A DNA stretch of 64,000 bases, taken from assembly GCF_900105115.1 (NCBI RefSeq), contig NZ_FNRV01000001.1, forward strand, positions 5,831,501 to 5,895,500. The letters are read 5' to 3'. The notes below the pieces were generated by a model. That model saw only the letters and a list, made by a program, of their open reading frames with translations, had not been told where the DNA came from and did not search any database. Numbering within the stretch: position 1 is the stretch's first letter; each line of letters starts with the position of its first letter. Position numbers and translations under genes: made by a program. Positions 9,266 to 46,935 of this stretch are shown here, in pieces. This DNA comes from Pseudomonas mohnii. Lineage in GTDB: Bacteria; Pseudomonadota; Gammaproteobacteria; Pseudomonadales; Pseudomonadaceae.

Positions 9266-10690
9266 TCAGTCACGCTGCAATTTGCGAATCAACGTACCGA
9301 TGTCGATGCCCAGATGCTGCGCCGCCTTGCGTTTGCTGCCGCACAGTTCCACCGCCTCGAGGATGACCTGGCGTTCGAACTGCTGGACCTGAAGTTTGAG
9401 GTTCTGCTCGGCGCTCTGATCGGTGGCGCCCTGAACGACGGAGGGTTTCAGTCGTTGCGCTTGCAGCAGCTCCGCGGGCAAATGATGCTCTTGCGCCTCG
9501 TCGTCGGCGAGAACCGCCAGGCGTTCGAAGATGTTGACCAGTTCACGAATATTGCCCGGGAAGTCATAGCTCATCAGCCGCTTGCGGCAACCGGCCGACA
9601 GGCTCAGGGAAGGCTCTCGATCACCGTTGATGCGGCTGAGCAGGATGTCGATGAGAAACGGCAGGTCATCGCGATGCTGGCGCAGTGGCGGGATTTCCAC
9701 CGGCAGCACGGCCAGGCGATAGTAAAGATCGGCACGAAATTCACCGGTGCTCACCAGGTGGCGCAGATCCTTGTTGGTGGCCGCGATCACTTGCACTTGC
9801 ACGGTTTTGCTCAGGGGCGAGCCGACCGATTGAATGGTGCTGTCTTCGAGAAACTTCAGCAACTTGGCCTGTACATGCAAGGGGATCTCGCCGATCTCAT
9901 CGAGGAACAGCGTCCCCCCGGAGGCCGCCTCGATGTAGCCTTGCTTGCCGCCCTGCAGCGCACCGGTAAAAGCGCCACGCTCGTAGCCGAACATCTCCGA
10001 CTCGAACAGGCTCTCGGGAATGCTCCCGCAGTTGACATGAATGAACGGTCGATCACCCCAGCCGGCCGCACGGTGAATGTGTCGGGCAATGGCTGTCTTG
10101 CCGACGCCGGGCTCGCCCAGGAGCAACAGTCGTGCGCGCCGGCGGAACGCGCGCACGCCGGTGTCGGCGATGCTCGACAGTTGAGGCGAGAGGTGCAGGG
10201 CGTTGTCCTGCGGGTCGCGCAGGCCTTGCGGTTCCGCCGGTCGATTGCCGAGTGATGCCCGCCGTTGCGGCTGGCTGCCGTCGAAGTCTTTCTGGGTCAG
10301 CATCCGGAACGGTTTTTCGTAGGCCCCGGTGGGGATGGCATGGGTGCTGCTGAGCAGCACCCGACCTTCCCGGGAACGGGTCAGGGCGCTGTTGCCTCCG
10401 CGATTGAGCGCGGCCAGCAAGTCGTCGTAATTCAGGGCCGAGCGCTGGAAGAAATCGCGCTCGGACAACCCGATGGCTTGCTGTTTCGACAACCGGTTGA
10501 CCCGCTCGGCGGCGAGGTTGAGAAAGCGCACCCGACCTTCGCCGTCAGTGACGATCAGTGCTTCGCTGAAGCTGTCGAGCAAGGCGTGCAGTGCCGGGGT
10601 TTCCAGCAAGGCACCCAGCACTTCACTGCTGGCATTGACCGAAGATCGCATGCCCATCTGCAACGAGGGCGGCAGGTTCGAGTCGTTCAT
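9266..10690 (-). CDS. Sigma-54-dependent activator (PAS-AAA+-Fis HTH)
   Basis: A 474-aa bacterial enhancer-binding protein. The N-terminal PAS-like sensor (residues ~35-130, EALIVTDGEGRVRFLNLAAERV) is followed by the AAA+ domain. That domain has Walker A GEPGVGKT, the sigma-54 contact loop GAFTGA, Walker B GGTLFLDEIGEIP and FRADLYYRLAVLPVEIPPLR. The C-terminal Fis-type helix-turn-helix is SKRKAAQHLGIDIGTLIRKL. The ATG at 10690 overlaps the upstream PAS gene stop (ATGA) and was preferred over an in-frame start at 10747 inside that gene. It is transcribed towards the N-demethylase operon and very probably activates the sigma-54 promoter at 9083-9097. The signal sensed is unknown. Confidence 0.9.
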   Translation of the reverse strand: MNDSNLPPSLQMGMRSSVNASSEVLGALLETPALHALLDSFSEALIVTDGEGRVRFLNLAAERVNRLSKQQAIGLSERDFFQRSALNYDDLLAALNRGGNSALTRSREGRVLLSSTHAIPTGAYEKPFRMLTQKDFDGSQPQRRASLGNRPAEPQGLRDPQDNALHLSPQLSSIADTGVRAFRRRARLLLLGEPGVGKTAIARHIHRAAGWGDRPFIHVNCGSIPESLFESEMFGYERGAFTGALQGGKQGYIEAASGGTLFLDEIGEIPLHVQAKLLKFLEDSTIQSVGSPLSKTVQVQVIAATNKDLRHLVSTGEFRADLYYRLAVLPVEIPPLRQHRDDLPFLIDILLSRINGDREPSLSLSAGCRKRLMSYDFPGNIRELVNIFERLAVLADDEAQEHHLPAELLQAQRLKPSVVQGATDQSAEQNLKLQVQQFERQVILEAVELCGSKRKAAQHLGIDIGTLIRKLQRD

Positions 10691-11814
10691 GGGTGCAAAT
10701 CCTGGACGCGACGCCCCTGGCATTCGCGAAACACCGCCACCCGCCACGCCACGCCCTCACGGACCAGGATGCGCGAGCAGTGCACATTGAAATTCCGGTC
10801 GCGCCCATGCAAATCAGGTAGCGGCAGGCTGTGCCAGGTGCGTTCGGGCAAGGCCATGTCCAGCAGCAACTGTGCGATCCCGGCGCCATGAGTGATGCCG
10901 AACGTGTCTTCGAACGCCGCATTGCGCCATTGCGGCTGCAGGTGTTCATCGATCACCAACACGGCGTCGGGCACGGCATCGAACACCCGGCGCAACGCTT
11001 CGATGCGCTGCTCGGCGTCGTGCTGCATGCGCAATTCCTGGCTGACGTCGCGAATGCTGCCCCACATCCGCAGCAGTTGCCCGTTGATGATGGTTGCCCG
11101 CACATCGTTTTCGACGTAGGCCGGCGAGCCATCGTGGCGACGGTCCACCGAGAGGGCGCAGTCGACGCTGAACCCGGCCTCGATCAAACGCCGCACGAAT
11201 GCTTCGTTGGCCGGGCTGCGCGGCCAGTACAGGCGGACGGGCTGCTGATTGAAATCGACATCCGACGGCATCTCGTAGACATCGGCCATGGCGCGGTTGC
11301 ACAAGCGCCAGTGGGAGTCGTTTTCAAAGACCTGGCGGACAATTTCGTCCGGGGTATTGTTGATGTTCACCGCTTCGGCGAATTCGATGCACCAGTACGC
11401 CACCTTTGCGCTCTGCAGCATCTGGCTCATTACTTCGTTGGCGTTGTGCATTTCCCGCAGCCGGTGGCCCAGCGATCCGAGGGGGATTTTCACCAGGTGC
11501 AGGCGCGCAGGTTGCACGGTCCGCCATTCCAGCAGGCCACTGGCGATCACATGCAGCAGGCCGCCATTGTGGCGAATCAAGGTGAGCTCCAGGCTCGGGA
11601 TGAGTTCGTCGGCAGGCGGGTTGGCGAACAGCGACTGCAAGGCACGCACCGACTCGACGCTGAAAATGCGTTCGATCGGTTGCGCCAGCAGTTCCTCCAG
11701 CGCATAGCCCAATTGATCGCTCAGGCTGGCGGACAGGTTGAGCAGTTGCCCGTCGGCGCTGACGGTGCTTGCGAGGGGCTGGGCTTTCTTGGCCAGCAAA
11801 TTCAGGATATCCAT
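10687..11814 (-). CDS. PAS-domain sensory protein coupled to the sigma-54 activator
   Basis: A soluble protein of 375 aa from the ATG at 11814 (MDILNLLAKKAQPLASTVSA). Another in-frame start at 11901 would add 29 residues of unlikely composition. It has an N-terminal PAS (LLNLSASLSDQLGYALEELL), a central region with WRLCNRAMADVYEMPSDVD, a PAC-like MWGSIRDVSQELR, and a C-terminal PAS (DAVPDAVLVIDEHLQPQWRNAAFED). There is no histidine kinase, GGDEF or HTH output. It shares an ATGA overlap with the downstream activator gene, so it probably signals to that activator by direct contact. A separate sensor of this kind for an enhancer-binding protein is unusual. Confidence 0.75.
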   Translation of the reverse strand: MDILNLLAKKAQPLASTVSADGQLLNLSASLSDQLGYALEELLAQPIERIFSVESVRALQSLFANPPADELIPSLELTLIRHNGGLLHVIASGLLEWRTVQPARLHLVKIPLGSLGHRLREMHNANEVMSQMLQSAKVAYWCIEFAEAVNINNTPDEIVRQVFENDSHWRLCNRAMADVYEMPSDVDFNQQPVRLYWPRSPANEAFVRRLIEAGFSVDCALSVDRRHDGSPAYVENDVRATIINGQLLRMWGSIRDVSQELRMQHDAEQRIEALRRVFDAVPDAVLVIDEHLQPQWRNAAFEDTFGITHGAGIAQLLLDMALPERTWHSLPLPDLHGRDRNFNVHCSRILVREGVAWRVAVFRECQGRRVQDLHP

Positions 11815-12339
11815 TGATGGATCAGCTCGATATTGGCGTTTGAGTGTTTGGATACGGCACATTGCATGCCAATCGAAACGCTTATAAACATTGACGTTCA
11901 CGAAGGCCTGTCTGGCTGAGCGCTGTGATAATGCAGCAGTTCATGCATATTTACAGCACTTTGCCGGGCCGGACACGCTATCCGATGAATGACCCTGTCG
12001 AGGCTGATCGCTGGAGCGGTGAGGGCGATAGCATTTTTCCCTCCAGCCAGGTGTTTCCCAGGATGAAATCGGTCTAAAAACGGCCACCCATTCCCTGAGT
12101 GCTTTGCTAATCTGAAGTTGTAGGTGAAAACGCAGACTGATGCGCAAGCGGATAGCGAGGAGGCGTGGGGCGCGCTCCGAAGGGTACACGGTTAGAAAGA
12201 TCTCCGCGCTGAGATCCAGCCCTTATGCCGTGTGAAGCAGGACAGTGTTTAGTTGCATCATGGTTACATGACTGTTCTGTGGGAGGCCTGATAAACCTTG
12301 TAAGCCAGAGACCAGCGCTGGCCACCTACTTAACCTTCG
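11815..12339. other. Gene-free stretch with a possible structured transcript
   Basis: I see no convincing coding frame here. The right half, about 12190-12340, is rich in short complementary segments: GGACAGT at about 12240 against ACTGTTC at about 12272, and CCAGCGCTGG at about 12311-12320. It runs directly into a strong rightward terminator at 12340-12363, which fits a small RNA or a 3' end of roughly 150-200 nt. No promoter was identified with confidence. Confidence 0.35.
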
Positions 12340-12363
12340 AAGCCCGCCTTGAGCGGGCTTTTT
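12340..12363 (+). terminator. Rho-independent terminator
   Basis: AAGCCCGC, loop CTTGA, GCGGGCTT, running into TTTTT: an 8-bp GC-rich stem with a T tract on the plus strand. No annotated rightward gene precedes it, so it probably ends a non-coding transcript. Confidence 0.85.
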
Positions 12364-12400
12364 AATGCCGTTCACGCAATCCTGCAGAAGCCAGGCACAG

Positions 12401-13014
12401 GTAACGCAATACCTGTAGGAGCGAGCCTGCTCGCGATGGACTCCAATACGCCGCGTTTAACCAGGCCACACGCGTCATCGTTAACGACCCTCGCCAGCAG
12501 GCTGGCTCCTACAGAGGGATGTAACGCCATACCTGTAGGAGCGAGCCTGCTCGCGATGGACTCAAATACACCGCGTTTAACCAGGCCACACGCGTCATCG
12601 TTGACGACCCTCGCCAGCAGGCTGGCTCCTACAGAGGGATGTAACGCAATACCTGTAGGAGCGAGCCTGCTCGCGATGGACTCAAATACGCCGCGTTTAA
12701 CCAGGCCACACGCGTCATCGTTAACGACCCTCGCCAGCAGGCTGGCTCCTACAGAGCGATGTAACGCAATACCTGTGGGAGCGAGCCTGCTCGCGATGGA
12801 CTCAAATACACCGAGTTTAACCAGGCCACACGCGTCATCGTTGACGACCCTCGCCAGCAGGCTGGCGCCTACAGAGGGATGTACCCAGGCATAGGTAACA
12901 ATACCTGTAGGAGCGAGCCTGCTCGCGATGGACTCAAACACGCCGCGTTTAACCAGGCCACACGCATCATCGTTAACGACCATCGCTGGCAGGCCGGCTC
13001 CTACAGAGCGATGT
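12401..13014. repeat. Tandem array of five 120-bp REPIN units
   Basis: Four near-identical units start at 12401, 12521, 12641 and 12761 with an exact 120-bp period. A fifth, more divergent unit occupies 12895-13014 after a 14-bp spacer. Each unit holds an inverted REP pair: GTAGGAGCGAGCCTGCTCGC on the left and its partner GCCAGCAGGCTGGCTCCTAC on the right, flanking a conserved centre with CGCGTTTAACCAGGCC. Differences between units are single substitutions, e.g. the 12761 unit begins GTGGGAGC. Because 120 is divisible by three, false open frames run through the array on both strands. Arrays this long probably arise by recombination between copies. Confidence 0.95.
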
Positions 13015-23244: not shown

Positions 23245-23664
23245 ATGGCCAATACAGAAAACAAGAACCCCGGTAATTCAGCCAGTGATCGGGACAAGGC
23301 TTCCGATACCACCAAGAAAGGCACAGGGGCTTCCGGCGGCAACGTAACCAATGATCCACAACGGGCAGGCCAGAAAGGCGGCCAGGCGTCGGGCGGGCAA
23401 TCGCGCGACGCTGATCGCATGTCAGGTGGTGGGCAAGGTACCCAGCGCGGCGGCGAGTTTGCTGACGACAAGCAGGACATGACCAAACCAGGACAGAAGG
23501 GTGGTCAGGCCTCCGGTGGACGCCAGTCGGGCGATGCTCATCATTCGACCACCGGCGGGCAGGGAAGCGGTCGTGGTGACAATATGGCCGATGACATGGA
23601 TAAAGGCTCTGAAGCGGGGCGCAAAGGCGGGGACCACAGCGGCGGCGGAGGACGTAAGGCCTAA
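23245..23664 (+). CDS. KGG-repeat (Con-10 type) stress-induced protein
   Basis: A 139-aa, glycine-rich, very hydrophilic protein starting MANTENKNPGNSASDRDKAS. It carries repeated KGG motifs in the contexts GQKGGQASGGQSRD, GQKGGQASGGRQSGD and GRKGGDHSGGGG. These are the stress-induced bacterial acidophilic repeat also found in E. coli YciG and fungal Con-10. It is predicted to be disordered. Such proteins accumulate in stationary phase, desiccation and under RpoS control, and in enterobacteria YciG affects motility. Its exact function is unknown. AGAGGTG precedes the ATG. A terminator-like hairpin follows. Confidence 0.85.
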   Translation: MANTENKNPGNSASDRDKASDTTKKGTGASGGNVTNDPQRAGQKGGQASGGQSRDADRMSGGGQGTQRGGEFADDKQDMTKPGQKGGQASGGRQSGDAHHSTTGGQGSGRGDNMADDMDKGSEAGRKGGDHSGGGGRKA

Positions 23665-26282: not shown

Positions 26283-26799
26283 AAAGTAACTGGAGAAGGA
26301 ATAAGTTCTAATTAACTGGGCAAACATTCGTTGTTTTCCAAGTTGGTGTTAAGCTGTTGTTACTGATTTTGCTTTTACTAAATTTTAGTTATATCGAAAA
26401 GCCAAATGGCTATAAAAAAATTTTGAACTTCTGGTTTGAAGTGAGGTATGCCGGCAGTTTTATTAATTAAAGGCACTTATAGGGAAGAGTTTGCAAATGC
26501 ATTGAATGGCGCAACGCTATCAAGGTGGCGATTTACTAGTACTGACAATATATACAATAATATATCGGGCTATATTATCTAAGACGTTGATTTACATTGG
26601 TAAAAAATTTGATGTCGTGCGAGGTTGGTCGGCTGTGATCATTATCTGATTGAGGAAGGGTTGCAAAGGAAGTTAGGTGACGAAGTGCTGTTGCCGTGTA
26701 TCTGCAAAAAAATCAGAATAAAAGCAAGCGCGCTTCGTCATTGGTGCTAGTGTTGATAACTTCAATTCACCGCACTTGTCTCTCTAAAGGACGTGCGTC
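26283..26799. other. AT-rich intergenic region upstream of the polysaccharide-like operon
   Basis: 517 bp without a gene and strikingly richer in A and T than the flanks, e.g. TATAAAAAAATTTTGAAC near 26411 and ATATATACAATAATATAT near 26548. Such DNA is typical of MvaT/H-NS-silenced promoters. The following gene has AAAGGACG before its ATG. I could not fix a -35/-10 pair. Confidence 0.6.
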
Positions 26800-28197
26800 A
26801 TGCCCATTCCAAATCCTCGAATCGCGATACTCGGTAATAGAGTGCCCAGTCTGAATCTTCCAGAACTTGAACACTTTTCCGACTTGGGCAGCCTGTTGGC
26901 GGCCCGCGCATTTGATGTATTACTGCTGGACATGCCAGCGGCCTATGCGGGCAAAGTGCTGCGCAAGCTACGCTCGATCCCCCCGTATCGCTATACCCTT
27001 ATTTACTGTTGCCGCGACCAGGATGGCTGGTGTGAAGCGTTGGGCGATGGTGCGTGTCCTGTCGAGTCCAGTGAGATCAAGCAGCTTTGGGGCGCCTGGC
27101 AGGAGCGCTTCAGGCTGCTTGAACAGGGGGCCGCCCCCGAGCGATTCGAAAGCCGGGTGCTGTCCTGGTTGTGGTTGCGCGAAAACGCCCATGTGTTTGC
27201 GTTGCGCGACCCGGAGGTGCCCCAGCATTACCGTTACCCTTTGCTGGACGCCTTGGCTGACAACGAGCAGATCAACGCGTTTGTCTGGCTCGGCTTGATG
27301 GTGCAGCAGGACTGGCTCGAAGAGGGGGTGCTGGTCGATCGCGTTCGCCTCTGTTCAGACTGTGGCTCGGGCCGGCTCAATTACATCGACGTATGCGCCG
27401 AGTGTCAGGCCCTGGACATTTCCCGGCAGCCCTCGTTGCACTGCTTCACCTGTGGGCATGTAGGGCCACAGGAATCCTTTCTCAAAGACGGTGTGCTGCT
27501 GTGCCCCAACTGTTTGAGCCGGCTGCGTCACATCGGTACGGACTACGACCGGCCGATGGAGAACTATCGTTGCCGGTCATGCCAGGCGTTCTTTGTCGAT
27601 GCCGAAGTGCAGGCGCGTTGCCTGGACTGCGGCTTGTCCCATACGCCGGATAAACTGCGAGTCCGCGAGGTCAGGGATTTCCGCCTGAGCGAGGCCGGAC
27701 GGTTCCGCTGCCGCCAGGAGTTCAGTGATCGTTCGGTGCAGAACTTCGGTCGACTCAACCTGCTGGGCGGCAAGGATTTCTATGATCTGCTGAGCTGGCA
27801 GATCCAGGTCGTACGCCGCTACCCGTCGCCGACCTTTTCGGTGATCGGTCTGCGCTTCGTCAACCTGGCCGGCACGTTGTCGCACCTGGGGGAACAGCGC
27901 GGTCATGCCTTCATCGACAGCGTGGCCGATCGCTTGAAGGAAACCGTACGGGAAACGGACCGCTGCTCGCGAAGTACCGAAGAGTTCTTCTGGATCATGC
28001 TTCCCCATACCGATGGCAAAGGCCTGGAGTGCGTCAAACAACGCTTGAGCCGGATCGCCGAGCTGTTTTCCGCGCCGGAGGTCAGCGACCTTTCCCTGCG
28101 TGTCGTCAGCATCACGGCGCCCGATGATCTGCTCGATCAGGAAAACGGTGAACTGCTGCTGGCCCGTTTGGCCGGTGAGTTGGTGTTACACCCATGA
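26800..28197 (+). CDS. Pseudo-receiver / TackOD1-like zinc-ribbon / degenerate GGDEF protein
   Basis: A 465-aa soluble protein. Residues 5-105 look like a degenerate receiver domain (FDVLLLDMPAAYAGKVLRKL, then YTLIYCCRDQDG). Residues ~120-300 hold six CxxC pairs (185/188, 199/202, 215/218, 235/238, 258/261, 274/277), for example LCSDCGSG, HCFTCGHVG, LCPNCLSR and YRCRSCQAFF. They are preceded by YRYPLLDALADNEQINAFVWL. This pattern fits the TackOD1 signalling-output domain, a multi-zinc-ribbon family of unknown function. Residues ~310-465 have the GGDEF fold, but the signature is replaced by STEEFF, so cyclase activity is unlikely. First gene of a four-gene operon and probably its regulatory subunit. 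Confidence 0.75.
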   Translation: MPIPNPRIAILGNRVPSLNLPELEHFSDLGSLLAARAFDVLLLDMPAAYAGKVLRKLRSIPPYRYTLIYCCRDQDGWCEALGDGACPVESSEIKQLWGAWQERFRLLEQGAAPERFESRVLSWLWLRENAHVFALRDPEVPQHYRYPLLDALADNEQINAFVWLGLMVQQDWLEEGVLVDRVRLCSDCGSGRLNYIDVCAECQALDISRQPSLHCFTCGHVGPQESFLKDGVLLCPNCLSRLRHIGTDYDRPMENYRCRSCQAFFVDAEVQARCLDCGLSHTPDKLRVREVRDFRLSEAGRFRCRQEFSDRSVQNFGRLNLLGGKDFYDLLSWQIQVVRRYPSPTFSVIGLRFVNLAGTLSHLGEQRGHAFIDSVADRLKETVRETDRCSRSTEEFFWIMLPHTDGKGLECVKQRLSRIAELFSAPEVSDLSLRVVSITAPDDLLDQENGELLLARLAGELVLHP

Positions 28198-29522
28198 ACC
28201 CCTTGATGGAACAACTCTACAACGCATTGGGTGGGCTTGCCGGGGCGGATGGTCTGAGCCGGTTGTTCTACATGCTCTTTCCATCGTTTCTGATTTTTGA
28301 ATTGCCGATGATGATCCTGGTGATGCTGGGCGTGCTGCGCTGGTTCGCCCGCCGGCGTTCCCGCGTGCCGAAGATCAGCCTTTATCAGCCCAGGGTCTCG
28401 TGCGTCATCACCTGCTACAGCGAAGGAATGGACGTGCAGACCACGCTCTTGAGCCTGTGCGAGCAGACCTACGGCGGTCACATCGAGATGATTCCCGTGG
28501 TCGACGGCGCCACCGTGAACCAGGCGACGCTGGCCGCCGTGCGCAGTTTCAACGTCGACCCGCAGTTGTACCCCAGGCGCCATTTGCGCCCGATCGCCAA
28601 ATGGCAGCGGGGCGGGCGGGTGTCGTCCTTGAACGCCGGCCTGTCGCTGGCCAGTGGCGAAATCGTGATGGCGCTCGATGGCGACACATCCTTCGACAAC
28701 AACATGGTCAGCGCCATCGTGCGGCATTTCGAAGACCCCATGGTGCCCGCGGTGGCCGGTAGCCTGCGGGTGCGCAATGTCTGGGGTTCCTGGGTCACGG
28801 CGATGCAGTCGCTGGAATACCTGCTGTCGATCCACATGTCGAAGATCGGTCTGGCGGAATGGAACCTGGTCAACAACGTGTCCGGGGCCTTTGGCGCCTT
28901 CCGCCGCAGCTTCCTGGTGAAAATCGGCGGCTGGAACACCCATACCGCCGAAGACCTGGACCTGACGCTGCGTATCAAGAGCTACTTCAAACGCCATGAC
29001 CTGAGAATCCCCTTCGAGCCTGAAGCGATTGGCCACACCGACGCGCCGGCGACACTCAGCCAGTTCCTGATGCAGCGCCTGCGCTGGGATGGCGACCTGT
29101 TCTTTCTGTACATCAGGAAGCACAACCGCAACATCAGCCCGAAACTATTGGGCTGGAAAACTTTTCTGATGATCCTGTTGACGGGCTTCTTTTTCCAGTT
29201 GGTGCTGCCGTTCATCATCTTCACCTACACCTTGCTGGCCATCTTCATCCTGCCGGGCATGACCCTGTTGTTTCTGTTTTCGCTGATCTATCTGTTGTAC
29301 CTGACGATCACCCTGCTGATGTTCGGCGCCATGTTGTTGATGATCTCCGACCGCCCTCGACAGGACATGACCCTCGGCCTGCTGGTGCCGTTCTTCCCGC
29401 TGTTCATGTTGCTCCTGCGCTGCTGGAGCGTGGTCGCCATGCTCAACGAAATGTTCCGCCGCGGGCATGAAGAAAGCTCGATGGCGCCCTGGTGGGTGCT
29501 GAAACGAGCCACGAGGTTTTGA
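28194..29522 (+). CDS. Membrane glycosyltransferase family 2 (polysaccharide synthase)
   Basis: A 442-aa processive-type GT2. One N-terminal helix (residues 25-50) precedes the cytoplasmic catalytic domain with SCVITCYSEGMDVQTTLLSL, D104 in VVDGAT, the DxD motif ALDGDTSF (162-164), TAEDLDLTLR (253-254) and QRLRW (294-298). Four to five membrane helices follow at 321-417. This D,D,D,QxxRW set is that of BcsA, PgaC and hyaluronan synthase, which polymerise a sugar and extrude the chain. No PilZ domain is attached. The ATG overlaps the preceding stop (ATGA), so it is translationally coupled to the TackOD1/GGDEF protein. The polymer made is unknown. Confidence 0.88.
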   Translation: MNPLMEQLYNALGGLAGADGLSRLFYMLFPSFLIFELPMMILVMLGVLRWFARRRSRVPKISLYQPRVSCVITCYSEGMDVQTTLLSLCEQTYGGHIEMIPVVDGATVNQATLAAVRSFNVDPQLYPRRHLRPIAKWQRGGRVSSLNAGLSLASGEIVMALDGDTSFDNNMVSAIVRHFEDPMVPAVAGSLRVRNVWGSWVTAMQSLEYLLSIHMSKIGLAEWNLVNNVSGAFGAFRRSFLVKIGGWNTHTAEDLDLTLRIKSYFKRHDLRIPFEPEAIGHTDAPATLSQFLMQRLRWDGDLFFLYIRKHNRNISPKLLGWKTFLMILLTGFFFQLVLPFIIFTYTLLAIFILPGMTLLFLFSLIYLLYLTITLLMFGAMLLMISDRPRQDMTLGLLVPFFPLFMLLLRCWSVVAMLNEMFRRGHEESSMAPWWVLKRATRF

Positions 29523-29523
29523 C

Positions 29524-30354
29524 ATGCGTTCGATCCTTCAGGCCCTGTGCTTGCCCCTGCTGGTGGTCCTGTCGTTGACCGCGCAGGCGGCGCAAGCGGA
29601 GAAATGGTCACAGGCCAGTTATGTCTGGGACAGCGAAGCGTTGCTCGATCCCGGCCAGCGGCCGGCTGAACTGGACGCACTGCGCAACGCCGGGATGGAC
29701 AAGATTTACCTGGGCCTCAAGGCCGCGCAGATCAAAGACCTGGGCACGACCCGCCAGCGCCTGGAACAGTTGCTGCGGGACGCGGCGGGCAAGGGGGTAC
29801 AGGTCAGCCTGCTACTGGGCGACCCGAGCTGGATCGAACCGCCGGAACGCCATCAGCTCACCGATCTGCTGGCGAAACTCAAGGGGCTTGCCTTCAGCAG
29901 CCTGCACCTGGACCTGGAAGTCGAGCAACTGGGCATGCCCGTTCCGGATCAGCGCCTCAAAGACTGGCTCGAAACCTTGCGCGTAGCTTCTTCGGTGAGC
30001 CCATGGCCGGTCGAGATTTCCAGTCACCATCGCTGGTTCGCTGACCCTAAACCTGGACAAACCTGCGTGCCCTGTGCGCTTCCCGGTGCGGGAGTGCGGC
30101 AGGTCAGCCTGATGATTTACACCCGTAACCCCAACAACAGCGCGCGAATGGCAGAGCAAATCGCCAGGCGCTGGCCCGACCTGCAATTTCGCCTGGCACA
30201 AAGCACGGAGCCGCAACTGGATGCCACGGAGTCCTGGGCCGGTGTTTCGACCGAACAGTTGCAGCACCAGAGCAGCGCCTGGCGTGAACAACTGCAACCT
30301 CTCGGGATTGCCGGCATTGACTGGCAAGCCTGGCGAGACTTTCCAAAACGGTGA
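29524..30354 (+). CDS. Secreted protein of the polysaccharide-like operon, possible TIM-barrel hydrolase
   Basis: A 276-aa exported protein. The N-terminus MRSILQALCLPLLVVLSLTA is a clear signal peptide with likely cleavage after AQAAQA. The mature part (YVWDSEALLDPGQRPAELDALRNAGMDKIYLGLK, VSLLLGDPSWIEPP, LHLDLEVEQLG, PVEISSHHRWF, VSLMIYTRNP, GIDWQAWRDF) alternates beta strands and helices like a TIM barrel. LDLEVEQL could supply acidic catalytic residues, as in glycoside hydrolases that trim exopolysaccharides. I do not recognise a named family, so the enzymatic role is inference. The gene starts 1 bp after the glycosyltransferase stop. Confidence 0.65.
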   Translation: MRSILQALCLPLLVVLSLTAQAAQAEKWSQASYVWDSEALLDPGQRPAELDALRNAGMDKIYLGLKAAQIKDLGTTRQRLEQLLRDAAGKGVQVSLLLGDPSWIEPPERHQLTDLLAKLKGLAFSSLHLDLEVEQLGMPVPDQRLKDWLETLRVASSVSPWPVEISSHHRWFADPKPGQTCVPCALPGAGVRQVSLMIYTRNPNNSARMAEQIARRWPDLQFRLAQSTEPQLDATESWAGVSTEQLQHQSSAWREQLQPLGIAGIDWQAWRDFPKR

Positions 30355-30360
30355 ACCCCC

Positions 30361-31476
30361 ATGAAGATTCGTTTTGATAGTCGTAAAGAACTGAGCCCGA
30401 CCCACGAGCAGGGTTTGAACGTGCTCTATGCACCGGGCAAGCGCACGGCGTTTCGCGTGCGCTGGTATTTGATCCTGTTTCTGGTCGCCAGCCCGTTGAT
30501 CTGGCTGGGTGGCAAGCTGGCCTACGGCATGCTGATGATCGATGCGCCGGCTCAGTTGCGCTTGCCGATCATCGAAGTGCGTGCGAGGGATAGCGGTCGG
30601 GTCGAGCAACTGTTGGTCAAGGCCGGTGACCAGATTGGCGTCGATCAGCCGCTGGTCAATCTCGACAACCCCGAATGGCGGGCCCGGTTATCGCAACTGG
30701 CGGCCCTGCCGACCAACACCACACCGGTACGCAATACCAAATTGGGCGGCAGTGAGCGTCAGCTGCTCAATACCCGCATAGGCCGGGCACAGGCGCGCGT
30801 GAAGGTGCTGGAAGATCTGGTGTCGCGTGGCGCCGTTTCGCCGGGGGAAGTGTTGACGGCCAAATCCGAACTCGATGGTTTCAGGGCCGATCTGTTGGCG
30901 TTCGAGCGCCGTGAGCAACTGGCCAATCAGGCGCCGTTGAGCGTTGAGCGAGACGTCATTCAACAAAACGCCGAGCAGCAGTGGCTGAAGACGCGCCTGG
31001 CCGCGTTGCCGATCAAGGCCCCGCAGAGCGGACGCGTGGCGGAAGTGATGATCAACCCCGGTGAAAACGTCGGTGCCGGGACCTTGCTGATGCGCATCGA
31101 ACGACAGGAAGACCCGCTGCTGTGGATTTACCTGGAGCCGCAAAATATCAGCTACGCCGCCATTGGCCAGGCATTGCGCGTGCGCATGCCCAACGGTGAC
31201 TGGCTGGAGGCTCATGTTGTCCAGGCAGTGGACAGCGCCGGGCGCACGCCGACAGTGTTACGCGGACCGTTTACGGCCAGCGAAATGGGTTTGCAAGTCG
31301 CTGCCCGATTCGATCACCCGCTGCCGGCGAAGTGGCGAATCGATCAACTGCCGTTGAATGTGCGGTTTCCCACTGACTGGCAGCAGATGTTCGCCGACAG
31401 CCGTGAACTCATCGAGCAAGCGGGCGATCTGTTCGCCATTGGCCGGGCAACGGCCACCGCCCAGGAAAGTCGCTAA
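30361..31476 (+). CDS. HlyD/Alg44-like periplasmic adaptor
   Basis: A 371-aa protein with one membrane helix near residues 35-58 (WYLILFLVASPLIWLGGKLAYG) followed by a periplasmic membrane-fusion domain. The two lipoyl half-motifs are EVRARDSGRVEQLLVKAGDQ and ALPIKAPQSGRVAEVMINPGENV. Between them lies an alpha-helical hairpin (ERQLLNTRIGRAQARVKVLEDLVSRG). The C-terminal barrel contains LWIYLEPQNISYAAIGQALRVR. It resembles the HlyD part of the alginate protein Alg44, which links polymerase and export. It lacks a PilZ domain at its short N-terminus. Last gene of the operon, 6 bp after the secreted protein. No outer-membrane channel gene is adjacent. Confidence 0.82.
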   Translation: MKIRFDSRKELSPTHEQGLNVLYAPGKRTAFRVRWYLILFLVASPLIWLGGKLAYGMLMIDAPAQLRLPIIEVRARDSGRVEQLLVKAGDQIGVDQPLVNLDNPEWRARLSQLAALPTNTTPVRNTKLGGSERQLLNTRIGRAQARVKVLEDLVSRGAVSPGEVLTAKSELDGFRADLLAFERREQLANQAPLSVERDVIQQNAEQQWLKTRLAALPIKAPQSGRVAEVMINPGENVGAGTLLMRIERQEDPLLWIYLEPQNISYAAIGQALRVRMPNGDWLEAHVVQAVDSAGRTPTVLRGPFTASEMGLQVAARFDHPLPAKWRIDQLPLNVRFPTDWQQMFADSRELIEQAGDLFAIGRATATAQESR

Positions 31477-46494: not shown

Positions 46495-46785
46495 CTACCC
46501 CTTCGGCACCTCAAACCCTCGCTGCTCAATCACCCGAAACACATCGCTCACATCCTGGATCATGATCCGGGCGATGTTGGTGATGGTGTTGATGTCGTTT
46601 TCGGCGGAGTCGGGGAGGCTGGTGCAGGCCATGAGGTGCAGGTATTGGAGGACGGCGTTGAGGCGTTCGCTGACGCAGTTGTGCAGTTCGCGCAGCGGGG
46701 CGTCGCTGTCGATGAGCAGGACGGGGTAGTGGGTGGCGAATTGGGACATGGGGGTGAAGCGACGGGGTGGGTGTTGATTCGACAT
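46495..46785 (-). CDS. Small Pseudomonas hypothetical (DUF6124/DUF3077-like), 96 aa
   Basis: Starts MSNQHPPRRFTPMSQFATHY with AGGA 8 nt upstream of the ATG at 46785. The helical core reads APLRELHNCVSERLNAVLQY, then LMACTSLPDSAENDINTITN, ending VFRVIEQRGFEVPKG. The layout of short proline-rich lead, LLxxxxE(x)L helix and two more helices recalls the DUF6124/DUF3077 proteins found in many copies in Pseudomonas genomes. Function unknown. A structured 5' leader precedes it. Confidence 0.65.
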   Translation of the reverse strand: MSNQHPPRRFTPMSQFATHYPVLLIDSDAPLRELHNCVSERLNAVLQYLHLMACTSLPDSAENDINTITNIARIMIQDVSDVFRVIEQRGFEVPKG

Positions 46786-46935
46786 GGTGAAAATCCTGAT
46801 AAAAGAAGAATTGCCACCTTTCTGCTGCGAAACAAATGGGTGGCAGCTGTGCGCGGGTTCGCAGACCGGGGACCTCCACCAAAAACCCGGCAGACCCGAA
46901 GGTCTCCCACGCACAACCGCCATAAAACTAATGCA
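46786..46935 (-). promoter_or_regulatory. Structured 5' leader of the small gene
   Basis: Read leftward, the leader contains AGACC-TTCG-GGTCT (46892-46905), a stable tetraloop hairpin. Further down is GCCACC...GGTGGC (46813-46844), a 6-bp stem closing a 20-nt loop just before the ribosome site. I recall very similar leaders in front of other small Pseudomonas genes of this type, so it may be a conserved cis-acting RNA. The frame through it is open to 46923 but is better read as leader. Confidence 0.5.

Follow-up and report, generated by a model that had tools for sequence, protein, structure and literature searches.

What might be made, and under what control, by a gene cluster of Pseudomonas mohnii in which a degenerate GGDEF protein bearing zinc ribbons is encoded directly ahead of a family-2 glycosyltransferase (GT2)? 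The cluster lies in a 64,000-nucleotide stretch of contig NZ_FNRV01000001.1 (hereafter the window, whose positions are given unless another locus is named) of a 6.59-Mb genome. Its four genes, all on the + strand, encode G1 (26800..28197; 465 residues), composed of a receiver-like part, TackOD1 zinc ribbons, and a degenerate GGDEF domain; G2 (28194..29522; 442 residues; PF13641/PF13632/PF00535), a processive GT2 and putative polymer synthase; G3 (29524..30354; 276 residues), with a signal peptide recognized by eye and a predicted glycosidase-like (beta/alpha)8 barrel; and G4 (30361..31476; 371 residues; PF16576, PF13437, PF00364), a membrane-fusion adaptor of the HlyD type. Judging from the sequences, we consider it rather probable that the four genes specify a synthase-dependent exopolysaccharide (EPS) machine gated by cyclic diguanylate (c-di-GMP), in which G1 would be the receptor and scaffold and the chain would leave through an HlyD-TolC exit. 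A first-pass annotation had assigned four tightly packed genes of these kinds to the stretch 26283..31476, with which the open reading frames (ORFs), the Pfam families, and the structural model of G3 agree, except that position 26283 starts an intergenic region with no gene there. The intervals between consecutive genes are -4, +1, and +6 bp, and purifying selection acts on each of the four genes (ratio of nonsynonymous to synonymous substitution rates, dN/dS, 0.04–0.16 against six close relatives). The ATGA overlap joining G1 and G2, to which a coupling of the two had been ascribed, is present in the window but is not general in close relatives, some of which have a short gap at this junction; the tight packing itself is general. 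Among the fetched loci, the closest relative with a name is P. moorei, with 98% identity in G2.

The possible control element is G1, whose residues were counted in 122 homologues (110 distinct) and in a subset of 25 representatives sharing less than 60% identity. Residues 113–296 (27136..27687, +) matched the TackOD1 family PF18551 with 212 bits against a cut-off of 32 (E=7.2e-63), and of the twelve cysteines in the six CxxC pairs, nine occur in 122/122 homologues and the other three in 114, 120, and 121. By score and by cysteine pattern, G1 is a full member of TackOD1, as had been proposed; the accompanying idea that it relays a metal signal fared worse, the near-invariant cysteines fitting structural zinc at least as well. 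The genome contains a single TackOD1 gene. The degenerate GGDEF domain (residues 331–426 in the Pfam extent; 27790..28077, +) matched PF00990 with 30.3 bits against a cut-off of 23.8 (E=4.4e-07), and residues about 312–465 matched GGDEF domains in VIA-align. Alignment with 3ign, a GGDEF domain solved with c-di-GMP, was gap-free in this region and placed the GGEEF of 3ign on T393-E-E-F-F of G1; glycine is found at position 393 in only 4/122 homologues. Because GGEEF is replaced by TEEFF, the active site of G1 looks dead, in line with the earlier statement that G1 cannot make c-di-GMP (there with the motif STEEFF, a frame difference of one residue). The function implied by the public name of many homologues, an active diguanylate cyclase, was rejected, since the catalytic motif is gone.

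The I-site, though, has been kept. Its RxxD motif, R384-E-T-D387 (27949..27960, +), stands five residues ahead of T393 in alignment with the RxxD of the c-di-GMP-bound 3ign, and R384 is found in 119/122 and D387 in 121/122 homologues. The third I-site arginine position, R415 (28042..28044, +), 31 residues after R384, holds arginine in 114/122 and lysine in 5/122. The spacing of R384/D387/R415 corresponds to that of the PleD I-site, R359/D362/R390. Moreover, in the 25 representatives, whose GGDEF parts are as little as 15% identical to that of the window and in which the active-site motif is lost, D387 (24/25), R340 (23/25), and R384 (22/25) are the top columns of the domain. These results suggest that G1 keeps a c-di-GMP I-site though its GGDEF active site is gone, and a role as c-di-GMP receptor is predicted; the earlier guess that G1 might bind the nucleotide is thereby strengthened. 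As for the N-terminal part (residues 1–110; 26800..27129, +), the model has a beta-alpha pattern, with block means of the predicted local distance difference test (pLDDT) of 69–93. Full-length fold matches were of low quality, D44 at a phosphoacceptor-like position is present in 92/122 homologues, and no acidic pair was seen after strand 1. The pseudo-receiver of the first-pass annotation thus stands as to its pattern, its identity being a presumed one because Pfam makes no call in this part. No membrane segment was seen in G1 by eye.

Several observations weigh against a c-di-GMP-gated machine. The TackOD1 protein of an Aminobacter plasmid (L151) has A, A, and V in place of all three I-site residues, making it a natural comparison for how general the gating may be; L138 has H384 and G415, L056 has F384, L133 has E415, and five more homologues have K415. 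PF00990 makes no GGDEF call in the distant systems L139, L141, and L151. The G1 model is also weak (pLDDT 65; predicted template modeling score 0.43), most of the cysteine-rich part being near or below 50. Given these exceptions to I-site conservation, either only some TackOD1 systems are gated by c-di-GMP or the I-site is a relic. G1 could accordingly be imagined as an adaptor through which the synthase responds to zinc or redox state without any use of c-di-GMP, its GGDEF fold being left over for dimerization or docking; the cysteines and the TackOD1 core, which are the most conserved part of G1, would fit such a role, as would the distant proteins just named. The retention of D387 and R384 down to 15% identity with the catalytic motif gone counts against it, because a plain relic of the fold would not favor the I-site alone, and we regard this adaptor as improbable, if still worth keeping in mind.

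A polymer as the product of G2 is suggested by its motifs. D104, D162xD164, E253D254, and Q294xxRW are invariant in 17 aligned G2 sequences, and from these we infer that G2 polymerizes a nucleotide sugar and extrudes the chain across the inner membrane; its assignment as a GT2 synthase is borne out by the Pfam families and the processive motifs. The best NCBIfam family was PgaC_IcaA, with 134.6 bits against a cut-off of 422.3; NodC scored 80.8 bits, and the CelA/BcsA equivalog model 14.7 bits against 699.1. Identities to PgaC, NodC, and IcaA are 29%, 26%, and 23%, and 18 rows of window-type G2 sequences group firmly together, separate from these three references (bootstrap 100/100). With respect to PgaC, NodC, and IcaA, therefore, the expectation that G2 is not orthologous to a described synthase was confirmed, and a pga, ica, bcs, or alg operon was rejected by the Pfam and NCBIfam matches together with the G2 identities. 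A single origin of all TackOD1-linked GT2s was recovered in 10% of 200 bootstrap trees. The genome encodes one further, distant GT2, 27% identical to G2.

The same scores bear on the possibility that the product of G2 is a short glycan, or a glycolipid or envelope modification, exported or placed by the HlyD(-TolC) proteins. Proteins or small molecules are the usual cargo of HlyD-TolC lines, and the NodC family, which makes short oligosaccharides, does score on G2; however, the best-scoring family is the model of the poly-N-acetylglucosamine (PNAG) synthase, even if far below its cut-off, and Q294xxRW is invariant. We consider such a product quite unlikely.

A probable route for the chain after G2 is suggested by the relatives of G3. 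The window's G3 has no Pfam or NCBIfam match, and its comparison by sequence with solved chains, run to an E of 10, gave six matches, of which the best had an E of 0.18 and none looked related. In agreement with the TIM-barrel-like pattern noticed before, it is predicted to fold as a (beta/alpha)8 barrel (pLDDT 91.3), and the barrel domain (residues 27–276; 29602..30351, +) has conserved acidic residues at the strand ends, as in (beta/alpha)8 glycoside hydrolases; D130, E132, E134, Y199, and E229 are invariant in alignments of 45 and 44 sequences. Foldseek returned mixed TIM barrels, and the VIA-align matches were glycosidases of various families separated by a few Z units. PgaB is just one of the many glycosidase folds matched, which leaves the analogy with PNAG and alginate machines, drawn at the outset, a loose one. 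In the relatives, gene 3 is long in 47/77 loci (about 620–760 residues; 573 in one), the other 30 having at most 341 residues, and in 4/4 long proteins tested, a TolC-type outer-membrane efflux protein (OEP) domain accounts for the additional N-terminal stretch (32–39 bits against a cut-off of 22). The same gene in a more distant gammaproteobacterial system (L117, 5933–8443) encodes AMIN-OEP-barrel. In the window's G3, the signal peptide is joined directly to the barrel.

On the G2 tree of 78 rows, a short gene 3 requires three changes, namely in the window's clade (25 rows), in L020, L021, and L023–L025, and in L081. L022, next to the second of these groups, keeps a long gene 3, and the short gene 3 of L020 retains a stump of the TolC start. 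By these comparisons, the TolC-type part of gene 3 is lost in the window's clade, and the system was therefore probably once a synthase-HlyD-TolC export line. G4 gave Pfam matches to HlyD_D23/HlyD_3 and biotinyl-lipoyl only, as the HlyD-like adaptor that had been predicted, with one N-terminal hydrophobic segment by eye. The two halves of the HlyD-TolC pairing are thus found apart, the HlyD-type protein in the window and the TolC-type domain, absent from the window, in the relatives' gene 3. The overall reading of the first-pass annotation is partly supported, this domain and the conserved I-site having been missed. L020 and L021, whose G2 sequences are identical, lie on the same joined contig of P. 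frederiksbergensis 36C6, pointing in opposite directions and separated by about 86 kb, which may represent a duplication or an assembly artefact. In L081, a metagenome-assembled genome labelled Synechococcus, the cassette is of the Pseudomonas type and its gene 3 is short; contamination or misbinning may account for the label.

The loss creates a difficulty for an export line in P. mohnii itself, as the window's operon has no outer-membrane partner according to Pfam on its four genes, and a search of the genome with the relatives' fusion protein returned nothing else at E<=1, a limit at which remote TolC-family genes may be missed. A change of use in this clade, with the product retained in the periplasm, as periplasmic glucans are, or the barrel turned into an independent enzyme, would suit the missing TolC part in all three groups and the purifying selection still acting on the four genes, but is very unlikely in our estimation, the retained G4 adaptor, with its dN/dS within 0.04–0.16, being hard to explain without an outer-membrane partner.

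The four genes were found together almost wherever they were found at all. A scan of species genomes with the G1 profile gave 154 relatives, and among the best 80 loci kept, G2 adjoins G1 in 79/80 and all four genes stand in order in 76/80. The four loci lacking the full set (L051, L054, L058, L061) end at a contig edge; L051, which shows no G2 and ends there, is nevertheless to be entered on the opposing side. Among 298 Pseudomonas-genus genomes, that of P. mohnii included, TackOD1 was present in 25, G2 (E<=1e-60) in the same 25, the barrel in the same 25 plus one remnant (genome G269), and G4 (E<=1e-20) in the same 25 plus one fragment (genome G258; G4 residues 228–344). In genome G163 the barrel lies in two frames, and the remnant in G269 consists of a GT2 3' end, identified by eye, followed by a short barrel. 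These results show that the unit is patchy but nearly all-or-nothing, and they answer the co-occurrence check proposed in the first-pass annotation in its favor. A decayed locus was also seen in L147 (7130–8194 and 8320–10185), where, by eye, a GT2 3' end runs into a short barrel gene and the latter is followed by a large polysaccharide deacetylase-like protein, not HlyD.

The cassette also occurs outside chromosomes. The Aeromonas caviae plasmid pKAM329_3 (L106; 29 kb, typed mobilizable) carries a complete Stutzerimonas-type set flanked by partition/toxin-antitoxin genes and a recombinase gene, and its G2 nests beside that of Stutzerimonas degradans, the branches being 0.003 long; another A. 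caviae plasmid record, listed in two places, also matches the cassette. On this sequence evidence, the four-gene set has moved between bacteria. In the Pseudomonas group of the window, the site looks old, because DNA of the window's LysR gene was matched in 25/81 loci and that of its major facilitator superfamily gene in 24/81 (80 genome loci and the plasmid). In viral contigs, 13 pattern matches were obtained, none of which is a relative.

The association of TackOD1 with a GT2 extends well beyond the genus. In a sample of 398 Pseudomonadota genomes, 15 had an above-cutoff TackOD1, in 16 loci including the window's own, and in 16/16 of these (window, L121–L134, L138) the gene lies directly beside a GT2 gene. 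Three sub-cutoff matches (L135–L137) have no adjoining G1 or G2 homologue, and L145, a fuller stretch for L135, matched none of five profiles. An HlyD homologue adjoins in 7/7 distant TackOD1 contexts (L139–L144 and L146; L146 is truncated where its contig ends). Conversely, a search starting from the GT2 led to the Aminobacter plasmid pAA02 (L151; 3535–7221), in which a GT2 about 30% identical sits between the TackOD1 and HlyD genes. The barrel, on the other hand, was found in only 6/369 genomes of the class, that of P. mohnii included, one of them weak (20.6 bits); the core module is therefore TackOD1-GT2-HlyD, the TolC-barrel belonging to some lineages. No match to the TolC-barrel profiles was obtained in the distant L139–L144, which speaks against the full export line as a general property. 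A 726-residue protein in L142, alike by eye, was tried as a further TolC-barrel fusion; its score of 8.1 bits compares with a maximum of 6.8 among 500 shuffled versions, Pfam gave no OEP, and it was not counted. Its gene and that of a TPR protein (9687–12453, - strand) stand beside the distant HlyD-TackOD1-GT2 set, and a gene with a cyclic nucleotide monophosphate-binding domain lies on the opposite side of it.

Taking the gated EPS machine as the best explanation, we infer its working from the anatomy of the components. G1 would be a dedicated soluble regulator, with its TackOD1 zinc-ribbon part as the scaffold docked on G2, and c-di-GMP bound at the I-site of its dead GGDEF domain would switch G2 on. 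G2 would then make the chain on the cytoplasmic side and translocate it across the inner membrane, and G4 would carry it over the periplasm into a channel of the TolC type. For most Pseudomonas-type relatives, the N-terminal portion of gene 3 would supply this channel, and the glycosidase-like barrel fused to it would trim or edit the chain. The window's lineage would have deleted the channel portion and kept the barrel as a free periplasmic enzyme, so that another TolC/OprM-family channel presumably must serve.

Precedents for such gating are available. PssE of Listeria monocytogenes, encoded in the GT2 operon pssA–E, is a degenerate GGDEF protein with RxxD that binds c-di-GMP with a dissociation constant (Kd) of 0.79 uM and is essential for EPS (PMC4125290), and YdaK of Bacillus subtilis (ydaJKLMN) is described as an I-site c-di-GMP receptor with a catalytically dead GGDEF domain (PMC7064775). 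Both resemble G1 in belonging to an EPS operon and in retaining the RxxD I-site in a dead GGDEF domain; unlike for G1, the consulted portions of these two reports mention no zinc ribbon. With its catalytic motif lost and its RxxD kept, G1 fits the kind of degenerate-GGDEF receptor represented by PssE, YdaK, and PelD. Furthermore, YdaK has four membrane segments, whereas G1 has none by eye. Both systems serve a Gram-positive envelope and are not known to include an HlyD or TolC line. For the export side, a close counterpart is the cyanobacterial cellulose export line XcsA-XcsB-TolC of Thermosynechococcus, proposed to consist of a GT2, an HlyD-like adaptor, TolC, and a separate glucanase, a scheme that lacks experimental confirmation according to its source (PMC12430437). 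In that system XcsA bears a PilZ domain, and the T. vulcanus genes lie dispersed, whereas a TackOD1-GGDEF regulator is found here instead, and in the relatives of the window's system the TolC part is fused to the barrel inside one operon. The rhizobial mixed-linkage glucan system BgsBA likewise combines a GT2 with an HlyD-domain protein and is activated by c-di-GMP, but BgsA binds the nucleotide at its own C-terminus, and the description consulted, of a putative bicistronic operon, names no TackOD1 gene (PMC9495663). The comparison with BgsA is thus one of descriptions, the sequence references for G2 being PgaC, NodC, and IcaA and not including BgsA.

The PNAG systems pgaABCD/icaADBC share with the cluster the best NCBIfam family of G2 and, through PgaB, one of the fold matches of G3; they differ in that G1–G4 have no PgaA, PgaB deacetylase, or PgaD match in Pfam and NCBIfam. 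In alginate synthesis, Alg8-Alg44 likewise pairs a GT2 synthase with an HlyD-like periplasmic adaptor, and Alg44 carries PilZ. G4, in contrast, has HlyD and biotinyl-lipoyl matches only, and no Pfam match to PilZ was found in any of G1–G4, as had been noted at first. TackOD1 itself, the thaumarchaeal output domain, has been described in archaea as the output of two-component regulators, with an obscure function (PMC5847659); here it is tied to a polymer synthase. In the open-access literature, as far as titles and abstract openings go, the four-gene operon is not named, TackOD1 is named in PMC5847659 only, and the combination of a TackOD1 receptor with a TolC-glycosidase fusion was not found. 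Collectively, by analogy, the system most likely works like the c-di-GMP-gated EPS systems of Listeria PssE and Bacillus YdaK, and by the tests run it is not pga, ica, bcs, or alg.

Upstream of G1, the AT-rich intergenic region 26283..26799 (+; 517 bp, 37.7% GC against 60.6% across G1–G4) is a possible regulatory region, in which an alignment of the window with 11 relatives revealed conserved blocks, among them TGAACTT and, close to the start codon, TGCTAGTGT. An AlgU-type promoter was considered here and not counted, as GAACTT is conserved but no matching -10 was seen in the 12-sequence alignment. Elsewhere in the window, Rfam gave a single match, to the C4 antisense RNA RF01695 at 46836–46927 (-; 80.2 bits against a gathering score of 45), which overlaps the 5' part of a short ORF at 46495–46923, and none at the four-gene locus. 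An ORF of 139 residues at 23245–23664 contains repeated KGGQASGG-type motifs and presumably encodes a protein like the KGG stress proteins.

It is an evenly balanced question whether these genes represent a separate, old polysaccharide machine of Pseudomonadota, built of a TackOD1 c-di-GMP receptor and scaffold, a GT2, an HlyD protein, and TolC, with one large branch carrying the fused glycosidase. If so, TackOD1 would obtain its first function, and the polymer would pass through a TolC-type channel, not a porin of the BcsC, PgaA, or AlgE type, with trimming and export combined in one protein. In the Pseudomonadota sample, TackOD1, in proteins mostly annotated 'diguanylate cyclase' next to 'glycosyltransferase', gains a consistent partner, a GT2 predicted to be a polymer synthase, together with the exact residues R384, D387, and R415 in its neighboring GGDEF domain; to this is added an operon-encoded GT2-HlyD-TolC line, whose TolC part is fused in the relatives to a glycosidase-like barrel. 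Being patchy in distribution and present on a plasmid, the cassette may be a transferable biofilm trait of environmental bacteria.

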